Positions 33,876 through 63,858 of a stretch of 64,000 bases of DNA are shown here, piece after piece. This DNA comes from Candidatus Methylopumilus sp. (GTDB taxonomy: Bacteria; Pseudomonadota; Gammaproteobacteria; Burkholderiales; Methylophilaceae), in the NCBI GenBank assembly GCA_024640945.1, contig JAHEEA010000008.1, positions 8,816 to 72,815 of the forward strand, written 5' to 3'. The notes under the pieces are model-generated. The model was not told where the DNA came from. It saw only the letters and a program-made list of their open reading frames with translations, and ran no database searches. The position numbers were made by a program, and so were the translations under genes. Positions within the stretch are counted from its first letter, which is position 1. Each line of letters begins with the position of its first letter.

Positions 33876-33992
33876 TCAATATTCATATATTGAGTAATAC
33901 ATCAGACTGATCTTGACCGTATTAATGGTAAAGATTTCAAACAGCTTAATAAATAAGCTTATAGGTAAAGTAGCAATCTTAATCAAAGACAT
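33876..33992 (-). CDS. Small membrane peptide, 38 residues
   Basis: A tiny ORF that begins MSLIKIATLPISLFIKLFEI and ends YYSIYEY; it is almost all hydrophobic and long enough for one membrane helix. The ribosome site is very strong: GGGAGGGAG five bases before the ATG. It starts 31 bases after the stop of the four-helix membrane protein and ends 15 bases before a strong terminator, so it is the last gene of the operon. I do not recognise it; a small subunit of the membrane protein is a reasonable guess. Confidence 0.6.
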   Translation of the reverse strand: MSLIKIATLPISLFIKLFEIFTINTVKISLMYYSIYEY

Positions 33993-51965: not shown

Positions 51966-52239
51966 TTCTGTCGCTGTGACCTAAATCGCGATCTGGATCA
52001 ATCCGGTCGCGTACCAACTGTTTTAATTCCTTAGATTCTGGAAACCGTGATTGCTCTTTTCGAGAAAAAATCACTTCTCCATTCAATCTCACTTCAAAAA
52101 TACCAGCCGTCCCAGGAACTAGACTCAAACTCGTGATGTCTGATTCGAACGTTGTCAGTAGCTCCTGTGCTAGCCAAGCTGCACGAAGCAACCAGCGACA
52201 CTGGGTACAATATTCAATTTCAAGCCGGGTATTTTGCAT
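51958..52239 (-). CDS. SelT/SelW/SelH (Rdx) family protein
   Basis: A 93-residue thioredoxin-like protein with the CxxC site in EIEYCTQCRWLLRAAWLA and the GxFEV strand GTAGIFEVRLNG. Both cysteines are ordinary codons, so no selenocysteine is implied. The role is probably redox, but the substrate is unknown. Confidence 0.88.
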   Translation of the reverse strand: MQNTRLEIEYCTQCRWLLRAAWLAQELLTTFESDITSLSLVPGTAGIFEVRLNGEVIFSRKEQSRFPESKELKQLVRDRIDPDRDLGHSDRTT

Positions 52240-52395: not shown

Positions 52396-53796
52396 ATGCG
52401 CTCAAAATTTGAAAAAATCAGCCTCATCACCATTGGCGCTGTATTGGGTATTACCTTAAGTCTCAATTACCCTGCAATTGCAGAAAAAAATACTAAACCT
52501 CAACTCCCTCTGGACGAATTACGTACATTTGCTGAGGTCTACGGAAAAATCAAAAGTGATTACGTAGAAACAGTTGAAGATAAAAAACTAATTAACGAAG
52601 CCATCAACGGCATGCTGACTGGATTAGATCCACATTCATCATTTTTAGACGTTGAAGGATTCAAGGACTTACAAGCTGGTACTCAAGGTGAGTTTGGTGG
52701 CCTGGGCATTGAAGTTGGCATGGAAGACGGCTTAGTGAAAGTAATTTCACCTATCGAAGATTCACCAGCATTTAAAGCAGGTATCAAATCAGGCGATTTG
52801 ATTATGCAATTAGACGAGAAGCTAGTAAAAGGCATGTCACTCAATGATGCCGTTAAAATCATGCGTGGCAAGCCAAACACGCCGATCAAATTAACTGTCT
52901 TACGCAAAGGTGAGAACAAGCCACTTTACATCACGCTAACGCGCGCAATCATTAAAACACAAAGCGTGAAATACAAATTAAGTGAGCCTAACTACCCTTA
53001 CTTGAGAATTACTCAATTCCAAGAACACACAGGTGAAGATTTAGCTAAAGCGATTAAAACTTTAAGGGAACAAAACAAAGGCCCATTTAAAGGCTTAGTT
53101 TTAGACTTGCGCAACAACCCAGGTGGCCTATTAAACGCGGCTGTTGGTGTGAGTGGTGCATTCATTCCTAAAGATGCTTTAGTTGTGTATACAGAAGGCC
53201 GCACGCCAGATGCAAAAATGCAACTCACTGCTAATCCAGCTAATTACTCACGTGGTGGTGAAAGCGCAGATTACTTAAAAGACTTACCAGCAGATATGAA
53301 AAATGTACCTATGGTCGTTATTGTTAACGGTGGTTCGGCTTCAGCTTCTGAAATTGTTGCAGGCGCATTACAAGATCATAAACGTGCAGTGATTATGGGT
53401 ACACAAAGCTTTGGTAAAGGCTCTGTACAAACGATCTTGCCAATGAATAATGGCACAGCGATCAAATTAACGACGGCACGTTATTTCACGCCTAATGGCC
53501 GCTCAATTCAAGCCAAAGGCATCGTGCCAGACATCATTGTTGAAGATCCATCAAATCCTTCTGACGCAGGCCTAAATCTTCGTGAAGCTGATTTGAGCCG
53601 TCATCTTTCAAATCCTAAAGAAGCGGAAGCTCCAGCAAAAACTGAAGCTGCCAAACCTGCATCAACTAAAGAAGAAAGCAAAGAAAAACCTGTAGATTTC
53701 AAACCAATCGAAGCAGGCACTAAATCTGACTTCCAATTCATGCAGGCGATTAACTTACTCAAAGGCATGGATATCATTCAATCAGGTAAGAAATAA
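52396..53796 (+). CDS. C-terminal processing peptidase (S41, CtpA-like)
   Basis: A 466-residue periplasmic protease: signal sequence or anchor to about residue 29 (NYPAIAEKN), a PDZ domain at about 90-170 (GGLGIEVGMEDGLVKVISP), and the S41 domain at about 180-380 with Ser in NGGSASASEIVAG and Lys in QSFGKGSVQT. A Lys/Glu/Pro-rich linker precedes a short conserved tail. It is followed by coq7 at nine bases. Confidence 0.92.
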   Translation: MRSKFEKISLITIGAVLGITLSLNYPAIAEKNTKPQLPLDELRTFAEVYGKIKSDYVETVEDKKLINEAINGMLTGLDPHSSFLDVEGFKDLQAGTQGEFGGLGIEVGMEDGLVKVISPIEDSPAFKAGIKSGDLIMQLDEKLVKGMSLNDAVKIMRGKPNTPIKLTVLRKGENKPLYITLTRAIIKTQSVKYKLSEPNYPYLRITQFQEHTGEDLAKAIKTLREQNKGPFKGLVLDLRNNPGGLLNAAVGVSGAFIPKDALVVYTEGRTPDAKMQLTANPANYSRGGESADYLKDLPADMKNVPMVVIVNGGSASASEIVAGALQDHKRAVIMGTQSFGKGSVQTILPMNNGTAIKLTTARYFTPNGRSIQAKGIVPDIIVEDPSNPSDAGLNLREADLSRHLSNPKEAEAPAKTEAAKPASTKEESKEKPVDFKPIEAGTKSDFQFMQAINLLKGMDIIQSGKK

Positions 53797-59586: not shown

Positions 59587-61254
<1,668 letters not shown>

Positions 61255-61270
61255 TCCTTGCTTTTAAAGC

Positions 61271-61310
61271 ATTGAAATAAAAACCCGCCTCGGCGGGTTT
61301 TTATTTCAAT
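61271..61310. terminator. Bidirectional terminator after groEL
   Basis: A perfect 19-base inverted repeat with a two-base centre and core AAAACCCGCC/GGCGGGTTTT. It has A/T runs on both sides. Confidence 0.9.
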
Positions 61311-61410
61311 TGCCAATCTTGTGAAGCGTATTACATGAAATACTGATTGCTAGCCCAAGCCCGCAAGGGGCTTCCCCAATTTACTAAGCCAGTAAACTGG
61401 CAAGTAAAGT

Positions 61411-61540
61411 GTGAAAAAAACCCCGACCTAAGGGGATTAAGGTCGGGGCAAACTAGCCTATAAAGGCTCCACACTAAGGGAGGGAAGTGTGGGACTTGCA
61501 TATGACAACTCTGAAAGCCACATGCAACTCATGTGAATAT
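61411..61540 (-). ncRNA. Candidate small RNA with C/T-rich loops
   Basis: In the 390-base gap between groEL and the helicase gene, the minus strand can fold as four hairpins in a row: 61519-61535 (CACATG/CATGTG), 61469-61492 (CCACACT/AGTGTGG with loop TCCCTCCCTT), 61455-61468 (AGCC/GGCT), and 61421-61448 (CCCCGACCT/AGGTCGGGG with loop TAATCCCCTT), the last followed by seven T. A weak promoter (TTGGGA, 16 bases, TAGGCT) lies at 61543-61570. The loops resemble anti-Shine-Dalgarno sequences. No ORF fits. The rest of the gap (61311-61410) shows nothing. Confidence 0.5.
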
Positions 61541-61647
61541 TGAGCCTAGCTAAATGTAATAAGTTCCCAATCATTATCCTTCAATAATTACTCACTTAAT
61601 CTGTAGTAAGTGTTCTCGAAGTGCGCCTGACCTGCGATAATCTAAGG

Positions 61648-63858
61648 ATGATAAATTCAAGCAATGCAGTTCAAGATTCTCTTCTGACGGGTCTTAACGA
61701 GAAGCAATTAGAAGCGGTGACTTTACCACATCAATCTGCCCTAATTTTGGCTGGCGCAGGCAGTGGTAAAACACGCGTACTGACCACACGAATTGCCTGG
61801 CTGATTCAAACAGGACAAGTCTCACCAACAGGTTTATTGGCTGTGACTTTTACCAATAAAGCAGCCAAAGAGATGCTGACGCGTCTCACAGCAATGTTGC
61901 CAATCAACACACGCGGCATGTGGGTAGGAACATTCCACGGTCTCTGCAATCGTTTATTGAGAGCACATCATCATGAAGCATTACTGCCTGCAACTTTCCA
62001 GATTCTAGATAGCGCCGATCAGCTTTCATCGATTAAAAGATTGATGAAAGTGATGAATGTGGATGATGAAAAATTTCCACCTAAGCAAGTCATGGGCTAT
62101 ATCAATAGCTGCAAAGAAGAAGGATTACGTGCTAATGCTGTCGATGCTTATGACCCTCACTCACAACGTATGCGTGAGATTTTTGAGGAATACGATAAAC
62201 AATGTCAACGTGAAGGCGTGGTCGATTTTGCCGAGTTGCTGTTACGTTGCTATGAGTTATTAAGTCGCGATAAAAATATCCGCCAACATTATCAAGAACG
62301 TTTTAAATACATCTTGGTTGATGAGTTTCAAGATACCAACAAGCTTCAATACATGTGGCTCAAGCTTTTTGCTGGCATAGGTAAAGAAGAGCCCAACAAC
62401 TGCATTTTTGCTGTGGGTGATGACGATCAGTCTATCTATGCTTTCCGTGGCGCACGTGTCGGCAACATGCGAGATTTTGAGGTGGATTTTAAAGTCCAAA
62501 ATATCATCAAACTAGAACAGAACTATCGTTCACACAGCAATATTTTGGATGCGGCAAATGCCATTATTTCAAACAACAACAATCGGCTTGGTAAGAACTT
62601 GTGGACGGCCGCAGGTGCTGGCGAGCCAGTACGTGTTTACCAAGCTTATAACGATATTGATGAAGCAAGCTTTATCGTTGATGAAGTCAAAATGCTGCAT
62701 AGTGATGGCTGGGCATTGAACGACATCGCTCTCTTATATCGATCTAACGCTCAGTCTCGTGTGATTGAGCATGCTTTATTCTCAAATAATATTCCGTATC
62801 GCGTTTATGGTGGGTTACGCTTCTTCGAGCGTGCTGAAATTAAACATACTATGGCTTATTTAAGGCTCGTCAGCAATCCTGAAGATGATGTAGCGCTGCT
62901 TCGTGTCATTAACTTCCCTGCACGTGGCATAGGTGCACGTAGCTTAGAGCAGCTGCAAGAATCAGCCAGAGCGCAAGATTGCAGTCTATGGCAAACGGCA
63001 GTCAATAAAGTCGGCAATGGTCGCCCTGGTAAAGGCATAGAAGGCTTTGTCGCACTCATTAAGCAAATGCAAGAAGATGCAAAAGGTTTAACACTGCCTG
63101 AGATGACCGAAATTGCCAGCACCATGTCTGGCCTTAAAAATTTCTATCAAGGTGAAAAAGAAGGCGAAGACCGCATTGCCAACTTGGATGAGTTGATTAA
63201 CGCTGCCGTCAGCTTTATGAATAATAATGGTGATGCACTCGAAGATAACAGCAATGGACTGACTGAGTTCTTAACCCATGCCAGCTTGGAAGCCGGTGAA
63301 CATCAAGCAGATGTTGGTGCGGATGCCTTACAGCTCATGACAGTACATGCAGCAAAAGGATTGGAATTTAAAGCCGTGTTTATTAGCGGCCTGGAAGAAG
63401 GTTTATGTCCACACGAAAACAGCTTGTACGAGAATAATGGTTTAGAAGAAGAACGCCGTCTAATGTATGTTGCTGTTACGCGGGCAAGACACCGATTATA
63501 TTTAAGCCATGCACAAAGCCGCATGTTGCATGGGCAAATCCGCTATGGAATTGCATCACGTTTCTTAGATGAAATTCCTGAAGGTTTGCTCAAACGTCTC
63601 AACAGTCGCCAAGTTCAAAAACCAAGCATGAGTACTTACGGCAATCAGAATTATAAAACAACCCTCACTTCTAATAGCAGTGAACAAAAATCGGCGATGC
63701 CATGGAAGATCGGCCAATCGGTTTCACATGCTAAGTTCGGTCAAGGTGTGGTAGTAAGCTACGAAGGCAACGCAAGTGATATGCGCATTCAAATTAATTT
63801 TGGACGCGAAGGTTTAAAATGGCTTGCAATTGAATATGCAAAATTAGAAAAGGTATAA
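61648..63858 (+). CDS. uvrD: UvrD/PcrA-type DNA helicase
   Basis: A 736-residue superfamily 1 helicase for nucleotide-excision and mismatch repair. Motifs: ILAGAGSGKTRVLTTRIAWL (Walker A), AVTFTNKAAKEML, LVDEFQDTNKLQY, VGDDDQSIYAFRGA, KLEQNYRSHSNIL, LMTVHAAKGLEF and VAVTRARHRLYL. The C-terminal Tudor-like part (GQSVSHAKFGQGVVVSYEG) favours UvrD/PcrA over Rep. The start is uncertain: ATG 61648 with a poor ribosome site, or GTG 61621. Confidence 0.92.
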   Translation: MINSSNAVQDSLLTGLNEKQLEAVTLPHQSALILAGAGSGKTRVLTTRIAWLIQTGQVSPTGLLAVTFTNKAAKEMLTRLTAMLPINTRGMWVGTFHGLCNRLLRAHHHEALLPATFQILDSADQLSSIKRLMKVMNVDDEKFPPKQVMGYINSCKEEGLRANAVDAYDPHSQRMREIFEEYDKQCQREGVVDFAELLLRCYELLSRDKNIRQHYQERFKYILVDEFQDTNKLQYMWLKLFAGIGKEEPNNCIFAVGDDDQSIYAFRGARVGNMRDFEVDFKVQNIIKLEQNYRSHSNILDAANAIISNNNNRLGKNLWTAAGAGEPVRVYQAYNDIDEASFIVDEVKMLHSDGWALNDIALLYRSNAQSRVIEHALFSNNIPYRVYGGLRFFERAEIKHTMAYLRLVSNPEDDVALLRVINFPARGIGARSLEQLQESARAQDCSLWQTAVNKVGNGRPGKGIEGFVALIKQMQEDAKGLTLPEMTEIASTMSGLKNFYQGEKEGEDRIANLDELINAAVSFMNNNGDALEDNSNGLTEFLTHASLEAGEHQADVGADALQLMTVHAAKGLEFKAVFISGLEEGLCPHENSLYENNGLEEERRLMYVAVTRARHRLYLSHAQSRMLHGQIRYGIASRFLDEIPEGLLKRLNSRQVQKPSMSTYGNQNYKTTLTSNSSEQKSAMPWKIGQSVSHAKFGQGVVVSYEGNASDMRIQINFGREGLKWLAIEYAKLEKV

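Follow-up and report, generated by a model that had tools for sequence, protein, structure and literature searches.

Does the minus strand between groEL and a uvrD-type helicase gene of Candidatus Methylopumilus sp. encode a small RNA (sRNA), and if so, what would switch it on and on what would it act? The stretch of DNA analysed here, 64,000 nucleotides in length, is referred to as the window. An initial annotation had placed a candidate minus-strand sRNA with anti-Shine-Dalgarno loops between these two genes, and the flanks are indeed of the kind it named: groEL (59602..61254, plus strand), the convergent neighbour, scores 852.7 bits with NCBIfam TIGR02348, above the cut-off, and the divergent neighbour (61648..63858, plus strand, start codon inferred) is a UvrD-type helicase gene with 1007.8 bits for TIGR01075, under the curated cut-off of 1144.45.

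On the minus strand, positions 61530-61413 hold four hairpins, two of them with C-rich loops (UCCCUCCCUU in hairpin 2 and UAAUCCCCUU in the terminator), and end in an intrinsic terminator, much as had been read initially. The minimum free energy of 61570-61411 (minus strand) is -56.8 kcal/mol compared with -37.4 +/- 4.0 kcal/mol for 200 dinucleotide shuffles (z -4.87), none of which was as low; this fold also contains an outer closing helix and a small extra helix upstream. The 5' hairpin (GAGTTGCATGTGGC...GTCATATGCAAGTC; 61493..61530, minus strand) is located at the predicted transcription start and varies in sequence in relatives. Hairpin 2 (61469..61492, minus strand), which is supported by fold, loop conservation and covariation, pairs CCACACU with AGUGUGG, and its loop is complementary to AGGGAGGGA-type Shine-Dalgarno sites. 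It is followed by hairpin 3 (61455..61468, minus strand; AGCCU-UUAU-AGGCU), supported by fold and covariation, and by the terminator (61414..61449, minus strand), composed of the hairpin 4 stem-loop at 61449-61420 and a U-run at 61419-61414 and recognised by terminator scan, fold and homologues. The scan reported this terminator on the minus strand only and the plus strand has no T-run after the stem, which bears out the earlier preference for the minus strand. The interval first proposed, 61411-61570, holds for the RNA part, but its first 35-40 nt (61570 to ~61532) are predicted promoter and not RNA; with the start placed from the position of the -10 element, the predicted full-length sRNA is ~119 nt long (61413..61531, minus strand).

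After groEL, a hairpin with an A-run and a T-run (61279-61303) could, by eye, terminate both strands; it is absent from the terminator scan output and gives a weak Rfam P9 match (25 bits, cut-off 43). The ~25 nt directly past the sRNA terminator (61412-61387, minus strand, CACTTTACTTGCCAGTTTACTGGCT) are common to congener G020 and not to six other aligned congeners.

Homology to the anti-hemB family

In an Rfam scan of 61200-61700, positions 61494-61413 (minus strand) match RF02837, "anti-hemB", with 48.3 bits (E 2.7e-10), a family that is already in Rfam and had escaped the initial annotation. Because the score is 1.2 bits short of the gathering cut-off of 49.5 bits, the window copy is regarded as a homologue and not as a formal member, and a whole-window Rfam scan at gathering thresholds therefore returned two tRNAs only. 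The three-hairpin consensus with a CUCCC loop and a terminal U-run is present in the window copy. The next RF02837 matches in the same genome reach at most 17.2 bits and were disregarded as further copies, and RF02278, the Betaproteobacteria toxic small RNA, gave 16.1 bits, below its cut-off of 50. No hemB gene lies beside the window copy, and proximity to hemB is apparently the source of the family name and not an Rfam criterion.

Listings of the anti-hemB RNA go back to at least 2012 (PMC3521395), and no function for it was found in the available text of the open-licence papers searched. In Burkholderia cenocepacia it is known as ncS04, a 105-nt transcript with a RACE-confirmed 3' end (PMC5688073) that is listed as co-purified with Hfq (PMC4603805). 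The RNA described here shares with RF02837/ncS04 the CU-loop hairpin, the middle hairpin, the CCCCG terminator and the U-run, whereas it is located at uvrD/groEL and not at hemB/yihA. In addition, the CCCC terminator loop is conserved in Methylophilaceae, while the Rfam consensus has a U-rich stretch there, and the 5' hairpin falls outside the Rfam model; the latter may not be a difference, because inspection by eye shows similar inverted repeats ahead of relatives from other families. The Burkholderia double-hairpin RNAs (RF02278) are likewise betaproteobacterial and are predicted to mask ribosome sites with unpaired stretches rich in C and U (PMC5688073).

RF02837 matches were obtained in 101 of 150 Methylophilaceae genomes, 88 of them above the cut-off. 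Along the part compared, the locus of one of these genomes, G017, is identical to that of Methylovorus mays, in which the promoter described below scores 20.4. Among the congeners, G020, G037, G058, G067, G082 and G088 are above it and G049 is below, and G076 and G094 gave no match. Loci of ~3 kb from 91 of the 101 genomes were analysed (ten were left out); the spurious match in G113 (25.4 bits) is included in the promoter-pattern and linkage counts for these 91 loci and was dropped later, and G115 provides only 20 nt upstream. uvrD is found in the same locus in 89/91 cases, the exceptions being one spurious match and one contig end, and the nearest long upstream frame clusters with uvrD in 69 of the 91, always in divergent orientation; groEL is present in 42/91. 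From the uvrD linkage, these are therefore in all likelihood copies of one orthologous gene that stays beside uvrD. All 90 homologues (without G113) have the three hairpins in the same order, with an insertion in G105 altering the middle hairpin, and an extra upstream hairpin of variable sequence is predicted in 85/89 folded homologue transcripts, a few having three pairs only. The loop of hairpin 2 has kept [UC]CCUCCCU in 88/90 homologues and the terminator loop has kept CCCC in 85/90, congeners G049 and G082 being without the latter.

Compensatory base changes in relatives, which the initial annotation had named as a test, were found: 13/14 pairs of hairpins 2 and 3 have changed on both sides (7/8 in hairpin 2 and 6/6 counted pairs in hairpin 3), with 96.1% of cells paired; the structure was derived from these same sequences and then guided their alignment, which favours this result. 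On each of five measures all 500 shuffles stayed lower, and pairing dropped to 8-60% in slid versions. This model-based alignment comprises 101 non-identical sequences, with 19 loci chosen from other families among them; the underlying alignment A3 contains 103 matches from 100 sources (the window, 80 family loci and 19 picked among at least 80 named loci). One of these, an additional weak hit in L133 (20.1 bits), is probably due to chance. The terminator helix was left uncounted because its alignment was shifted. L138, with a large insertion, was excluded from alignment A1, in which one copy per identical sequence was used. Covariance model R2, built with a hand-given structure from 22 family sequences, matches the window at 61493-61413 with 50.5 bits; its predecessor R1 was discarded, as the MAFFT alignment had misplaced stems and just 12 pairs were retained, and an outer-stem swap test was not used as evidence, its own pairing being 1.0 by construction. 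The loops are constant while the stems change, which suggests that the loops carry the function. RF02837 homology, covariation, uvrD linkage and the conserved upstream promoter lend good support to the minus-strand sRNA gene first proposed, and on comparative sequence grounds it is very probable that the stretch does encode an sRNA, one of a catalogued, uncharacterised family.

No credible RF02837 match was seen in genera g13, g14, g21 and g16 (in g16 only the spurious G113), yet rpoE is present in genomes belonging to them; those of g14 and g16 that are complete measure only ~1.3 Mb, which points to an sRNA that was lost or has diverged strongly.

The predicted ECF/sigma-E-type promoter upstream

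The sRNA is preceded by a predicted ECF/sigma-E-type promoter, identified by conservation and matrix score and absent from the initial annotation. Its -35 element, GGAACT, is located at 61562..61567 (minus strand) and its -10 element, CTCAAT, at 61539..61544 (minus strand), 17 nt downstream; the latter is weaker than the GTCTGA, GTCTTA or GTCATA that are common among relatives. The pattern NGAACY-N16/17-NTC is found upstream of the sRNA in 89/89 testable Methylophilaceae loci, the commonest -35 element being GGAACT (47/89) and the -10 element mostly one of the three GTC forms. In its strict form, GAACY-N14-18-GTC, the motif occurs in 66/91 family loci compared with a mean of 0.47 in shuffles, and in its loose form, GAACY-N14-19-TC, in 89/91 compared with 3.2, counts that are not independent since the family loci are related. 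Outside Methylophilaceae, the strict motif precedes 20/29 loci (0.26 in shuffles), taken from 124 genomes with a match among 274 class genomes, and such loci from other families and gene contexts are stronger support for the promoter than the family loci. The shared upstream motif resembles the sigma-E consensus.

The copy in the window, GGGAACTTA-N-GCTCAATA, has the lowest score of eight congeners and lacks the GTC found in most relatives. When its own genus is left out of the matrix training, it scores 13.4 bits, the second-best site on both strands of the window, and sites scoring like it occur at a mean of 1.55 per shuffled window. The sRNA is thus predicted to have an ECF/sigma-E-type promoter at its 5' end, its own copy being weak, so that the weight of this copy rests on position and conservation.

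Both rpoE and hfq are present above their cut-offs in the genome from which the window derives (G000). The strict motif also precedes rpoE itself in 27/30 family loci (0.68 in shuffles), examined in 30 of 137 genomes, with the three exceptions (G017, G035 and G047) belonging to one genus, and a slightly looser motif precedes rpoE in G000 and seven congeners (8/8). rpoE is above the cut-off in 137/150 family genomes, including those of genera without a credible sRNA; its presence therefore discriminates little, and co-occurrence of rpoE and the sRNA was set aside as uninformative. A second protein matching the RpoE model (E <= 1e-20) was found in 14/150 family genomes, so that other ECF factors exist in the family; G000 showed one.

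A pattern scan of named genomes covered at least 80 loci. Among the matches listed, the strict motif was present in 18/81 and the loose motif in 38/81 (0.8 and 4.7 in shuffles), and 45 of 80 upstream regions reached p 0.05 (60 shuffles each). For a comparison by taxon, 56 of the at least 80 named loci were used, namely those with a usable title, names being assigned to families by recall; spacers of 16 and 17 only were allowed, which left L271 (9.3, spacer 18) and L262 (8.3, spacer 15) unscored. Among the matches listed, a promoter score of at least 8 was reached by Rhodocyclales (6/6), Oxalobacteraceae (2/2), Nitrosospira, Gallionellaceae, Hydrogenophilales and Sulfurimicrobium together (3/4) and Methylophilales (2/2, not independent, as they are also in the matrix training set). 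It was also reached by 6/9 records listed with the title Gammaproteobacteria (or a family of it), although metagenome-derived titles of this kind may follow a taxonomy that includes Betaproteobacteria and the six contain one named isolate, Ectothiorhodospira mobilis. Among the same matches, no such score was found in Neisseriales (0/1), Comamonadaceae (0/20) or Burkholderiaceae (0/12), the last having nine weak sites, most of the form GAAACTTT...TATCATA; the ECF-type promoter is thus stronger in Methylophilaceae than in the Burkholderiaceae copies. Reading eleven outside-family loci by eye revealed a HemB-like frame upstream in six and a YihA-like frame downstream in eight, with NCBIfam confirmation for the Nitrosospira locus only. 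Outside the family, the RNA occurs beside such hemB- and yihA-like genes, at several loci together with its promoter, which indicates that the promoter travels with the RNA and not with uvrD.

The upstream regions of the Comamonadaceae loci (L216, L228, L231, L245, L258 and others) look sigma-70-like by eye, which would mean that the promoter has been rewired.

Proposed action and alternative explanations

The best explanation, and in our judgement a fairly probable one, is an RpoE-driven, Hfq-dependent trans-acting RNA that masks Shine-Dalgarno sites with its CCUCCCU and CCCC loops. The sRNA would be transcribed divergently from uvrD by RNA polymerase with an RpoE-type ECF sigma factor, transcription would stop at its own intrinsic terminator and the RNA would be stabilised by Hfq. 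When envelope stress releases RpoE, the exposed CCUCCCU loop, along with the CCCC terminator loop, would pair to purine-rich Shine-Dalgarno sites and so reduce the translation of a group of mRNAs. The sequence of the sigma-E-type promoter in close relatives suggests that the sRNA may tune protein synthesis upon cell-surface damage.

MicA, RybB and VrrA are envelope-stress sRNAs of enterobacteria and Vibrio. The RNA proposed here would resemble them as a short Hfq-type sRNA behind a sigma-E-type promoter, whereas its pairing would use internal loops and its omp targets are putative. MicA is under sigma-E control, and in an rseA mutant the level of the Bordetella RNA CT_532, described as a homologue of MicA, did not rise (PMC12235514), an observation that tells against the proposal. 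For two other Bordetella RNAs, CT_433 and CT_521, whose levels drop without Hfq, RIL-seq pointed to targets in which a motif resembling a Shine-Dalgarno site is complementary to the C/T-rich regions of the two RNAs (PMC12235514), and the sRNA here has regions of this type as well; RpoE control of the two is not reported in the available part of that paper. An encounter between a C/T-rich RNA and motifs of the Shine-Dalgarno kind is thus possible in vivo.

As for putative targets, GGGAGG-N3-12-ATG occurs at 12 sites in the genome of the window and at 15 control sites, thus without excess. The pattern CAGGGAGGA-N3-9-ATG gave 61 matches in 60 family genomes compared with six for a reversed-pattern control, none of them in the window's own genome, an excess that may reflect ribosome sites in general. 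Among 30 translated CAGGGAGGA loci, one per genome, no gene recurs beyond pairs or triples within one genus, and one such triple belongs to g16, a genus without a credible sRNA. Porin ribosome sites are mostly AGGAGA (12 starts found, 20 of 29 loci examined), which pairs partially with the loop; the own-genome porin gave -6.2 kcal/mol. No conserved target emerged from the pattern scans, porin loci and translated candidates. A 38-aa ORF at 33876-33992 (minus strand) has the ribosome site AGGGAGGGA, a ten-pair complement to the sRNA loop (-18.9 kcal/mol); it is not put forward as a target, the peptide not being found in the nine other genomes of the genus.

The absence of a conserved target, together with repeated C-rich loops amid few other sequence constraints, would also fit an RNA acting mainly through protein binding, by titrating Hfq or another RNA-binding protein, instead of through mRNA pairing. 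We consider this improbable, as the loop sequence is of the anti-Shine-Dalgarno type and the Bordetella RNAs are tied by RIL-seq to Shine-Dalgarno-like targets (PMC12235514). Still less credible, to the point of being very improbable, is that the upstream motif and hairpins serve the 5' region of uvrD in its regulation, the minus-strand RNA being a by-product: uvrD is linked to nearly all family loci, as this would predict, but in other families the RNA adjoins hemB-like and yihA-like genes, at several loci along with its promoter, the motif points in the direction of the sRNA and its distance from it hardly varies, and only the minus strand has the U-run terminator.

A more serious contender, though on balance unlikely, is an anti-hemB homologue with anti-Shine-Dalgarno loops that is driven by the housekeeping sigma factor or another ECF factor and not by RpoE. 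The relative in B. cenocepacia, which biofilms express, showed no significant change in any of seven tabulated conditions (PMC5688073), the ECF motif is missing from 20/20 Comamonadaceae loci among the matches listed, and the family does contain the other ECF factors mentioned above. In that B. cenocepacia study, brief exposure to stress, with SDS among the treatments, induced the sRNAs to little extent, and no SDS value is tabulated (PMC5688073). Because Burkholderiaceae carry the weak promoter form, the ncS04 result neither confirms nor excludes control by RpoE in Methylophilaceae. Against a driver other than RpoE stands the -35/-10 pair with 16/17-nt spacing, which is present in every testable family locus and resembles the family rpoE promoters; against the housekeeping factor stands a sigma-70 scan of 60800-62200, in which neither of the two promoter-like sites listed lies directly ahead of the sRNA.

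With RpoE as the preferred driver, what is new here is the ECF/sigma-E-type promoter link, the sRNA itself being an ordinary homologue of a catalogued family. In the open-licence literature, as far as its text was available, no report of an ECF promoter for the RF02837 family was found, so novelty is unproven; the available part of PMC10175445 contains no mention of one. No open-licence paper was found on RF02837 by accession or on an RpoE-dependent sRNA in Betaproteobacteria, and none of the open-licence papers on small RNAs of Methylophilaceae describes such an RNA in its title or abstract opening. Through a conserved ECF-type promoter, the anti-hemB RNA would be connected to a stress circuit that is already known, and its role could be tested directly. 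More broadly, RF02837 may be an unrecognised sigma-E-dependent RNA of Betaproteobacteria and some Gammaproteobacteria, a MicA/RybB counterpart with generic anti-Shine-Dalgarno loops, its promoter rewired in Comamonadaceae (perhaps Burkholderiaceae) and its position at uvrD instead of hemB in Methylophilaceae, a reading on which we are almost evenly divided. If true, Betaproteobacteria would have an sRNA branch of the sigma-E response comparable to the one in enterobacteria, and the family would offer a natural case of one sRNA with its promoter rewired between lineages.

Clusters of two to four RF02837-like RNAs were seen at L196-L201 (class genomes G411, G412, G320, G255, G297 and G299), with the strict ECF motif before 8/16 copies examined and, by eye, a GAAACTT variant before others. 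The best ECF-type promoter-like site in the window, GGAACT-N17-GTCTGA at 52115 (plus strand; 16.5 bits), lies within a 93-aa minus-strand ORF, with a gene for a C-terminal processing peptidase (52396-53796) starting ~280 nt downstream of the site, and possibly marks another member of the same regulon.
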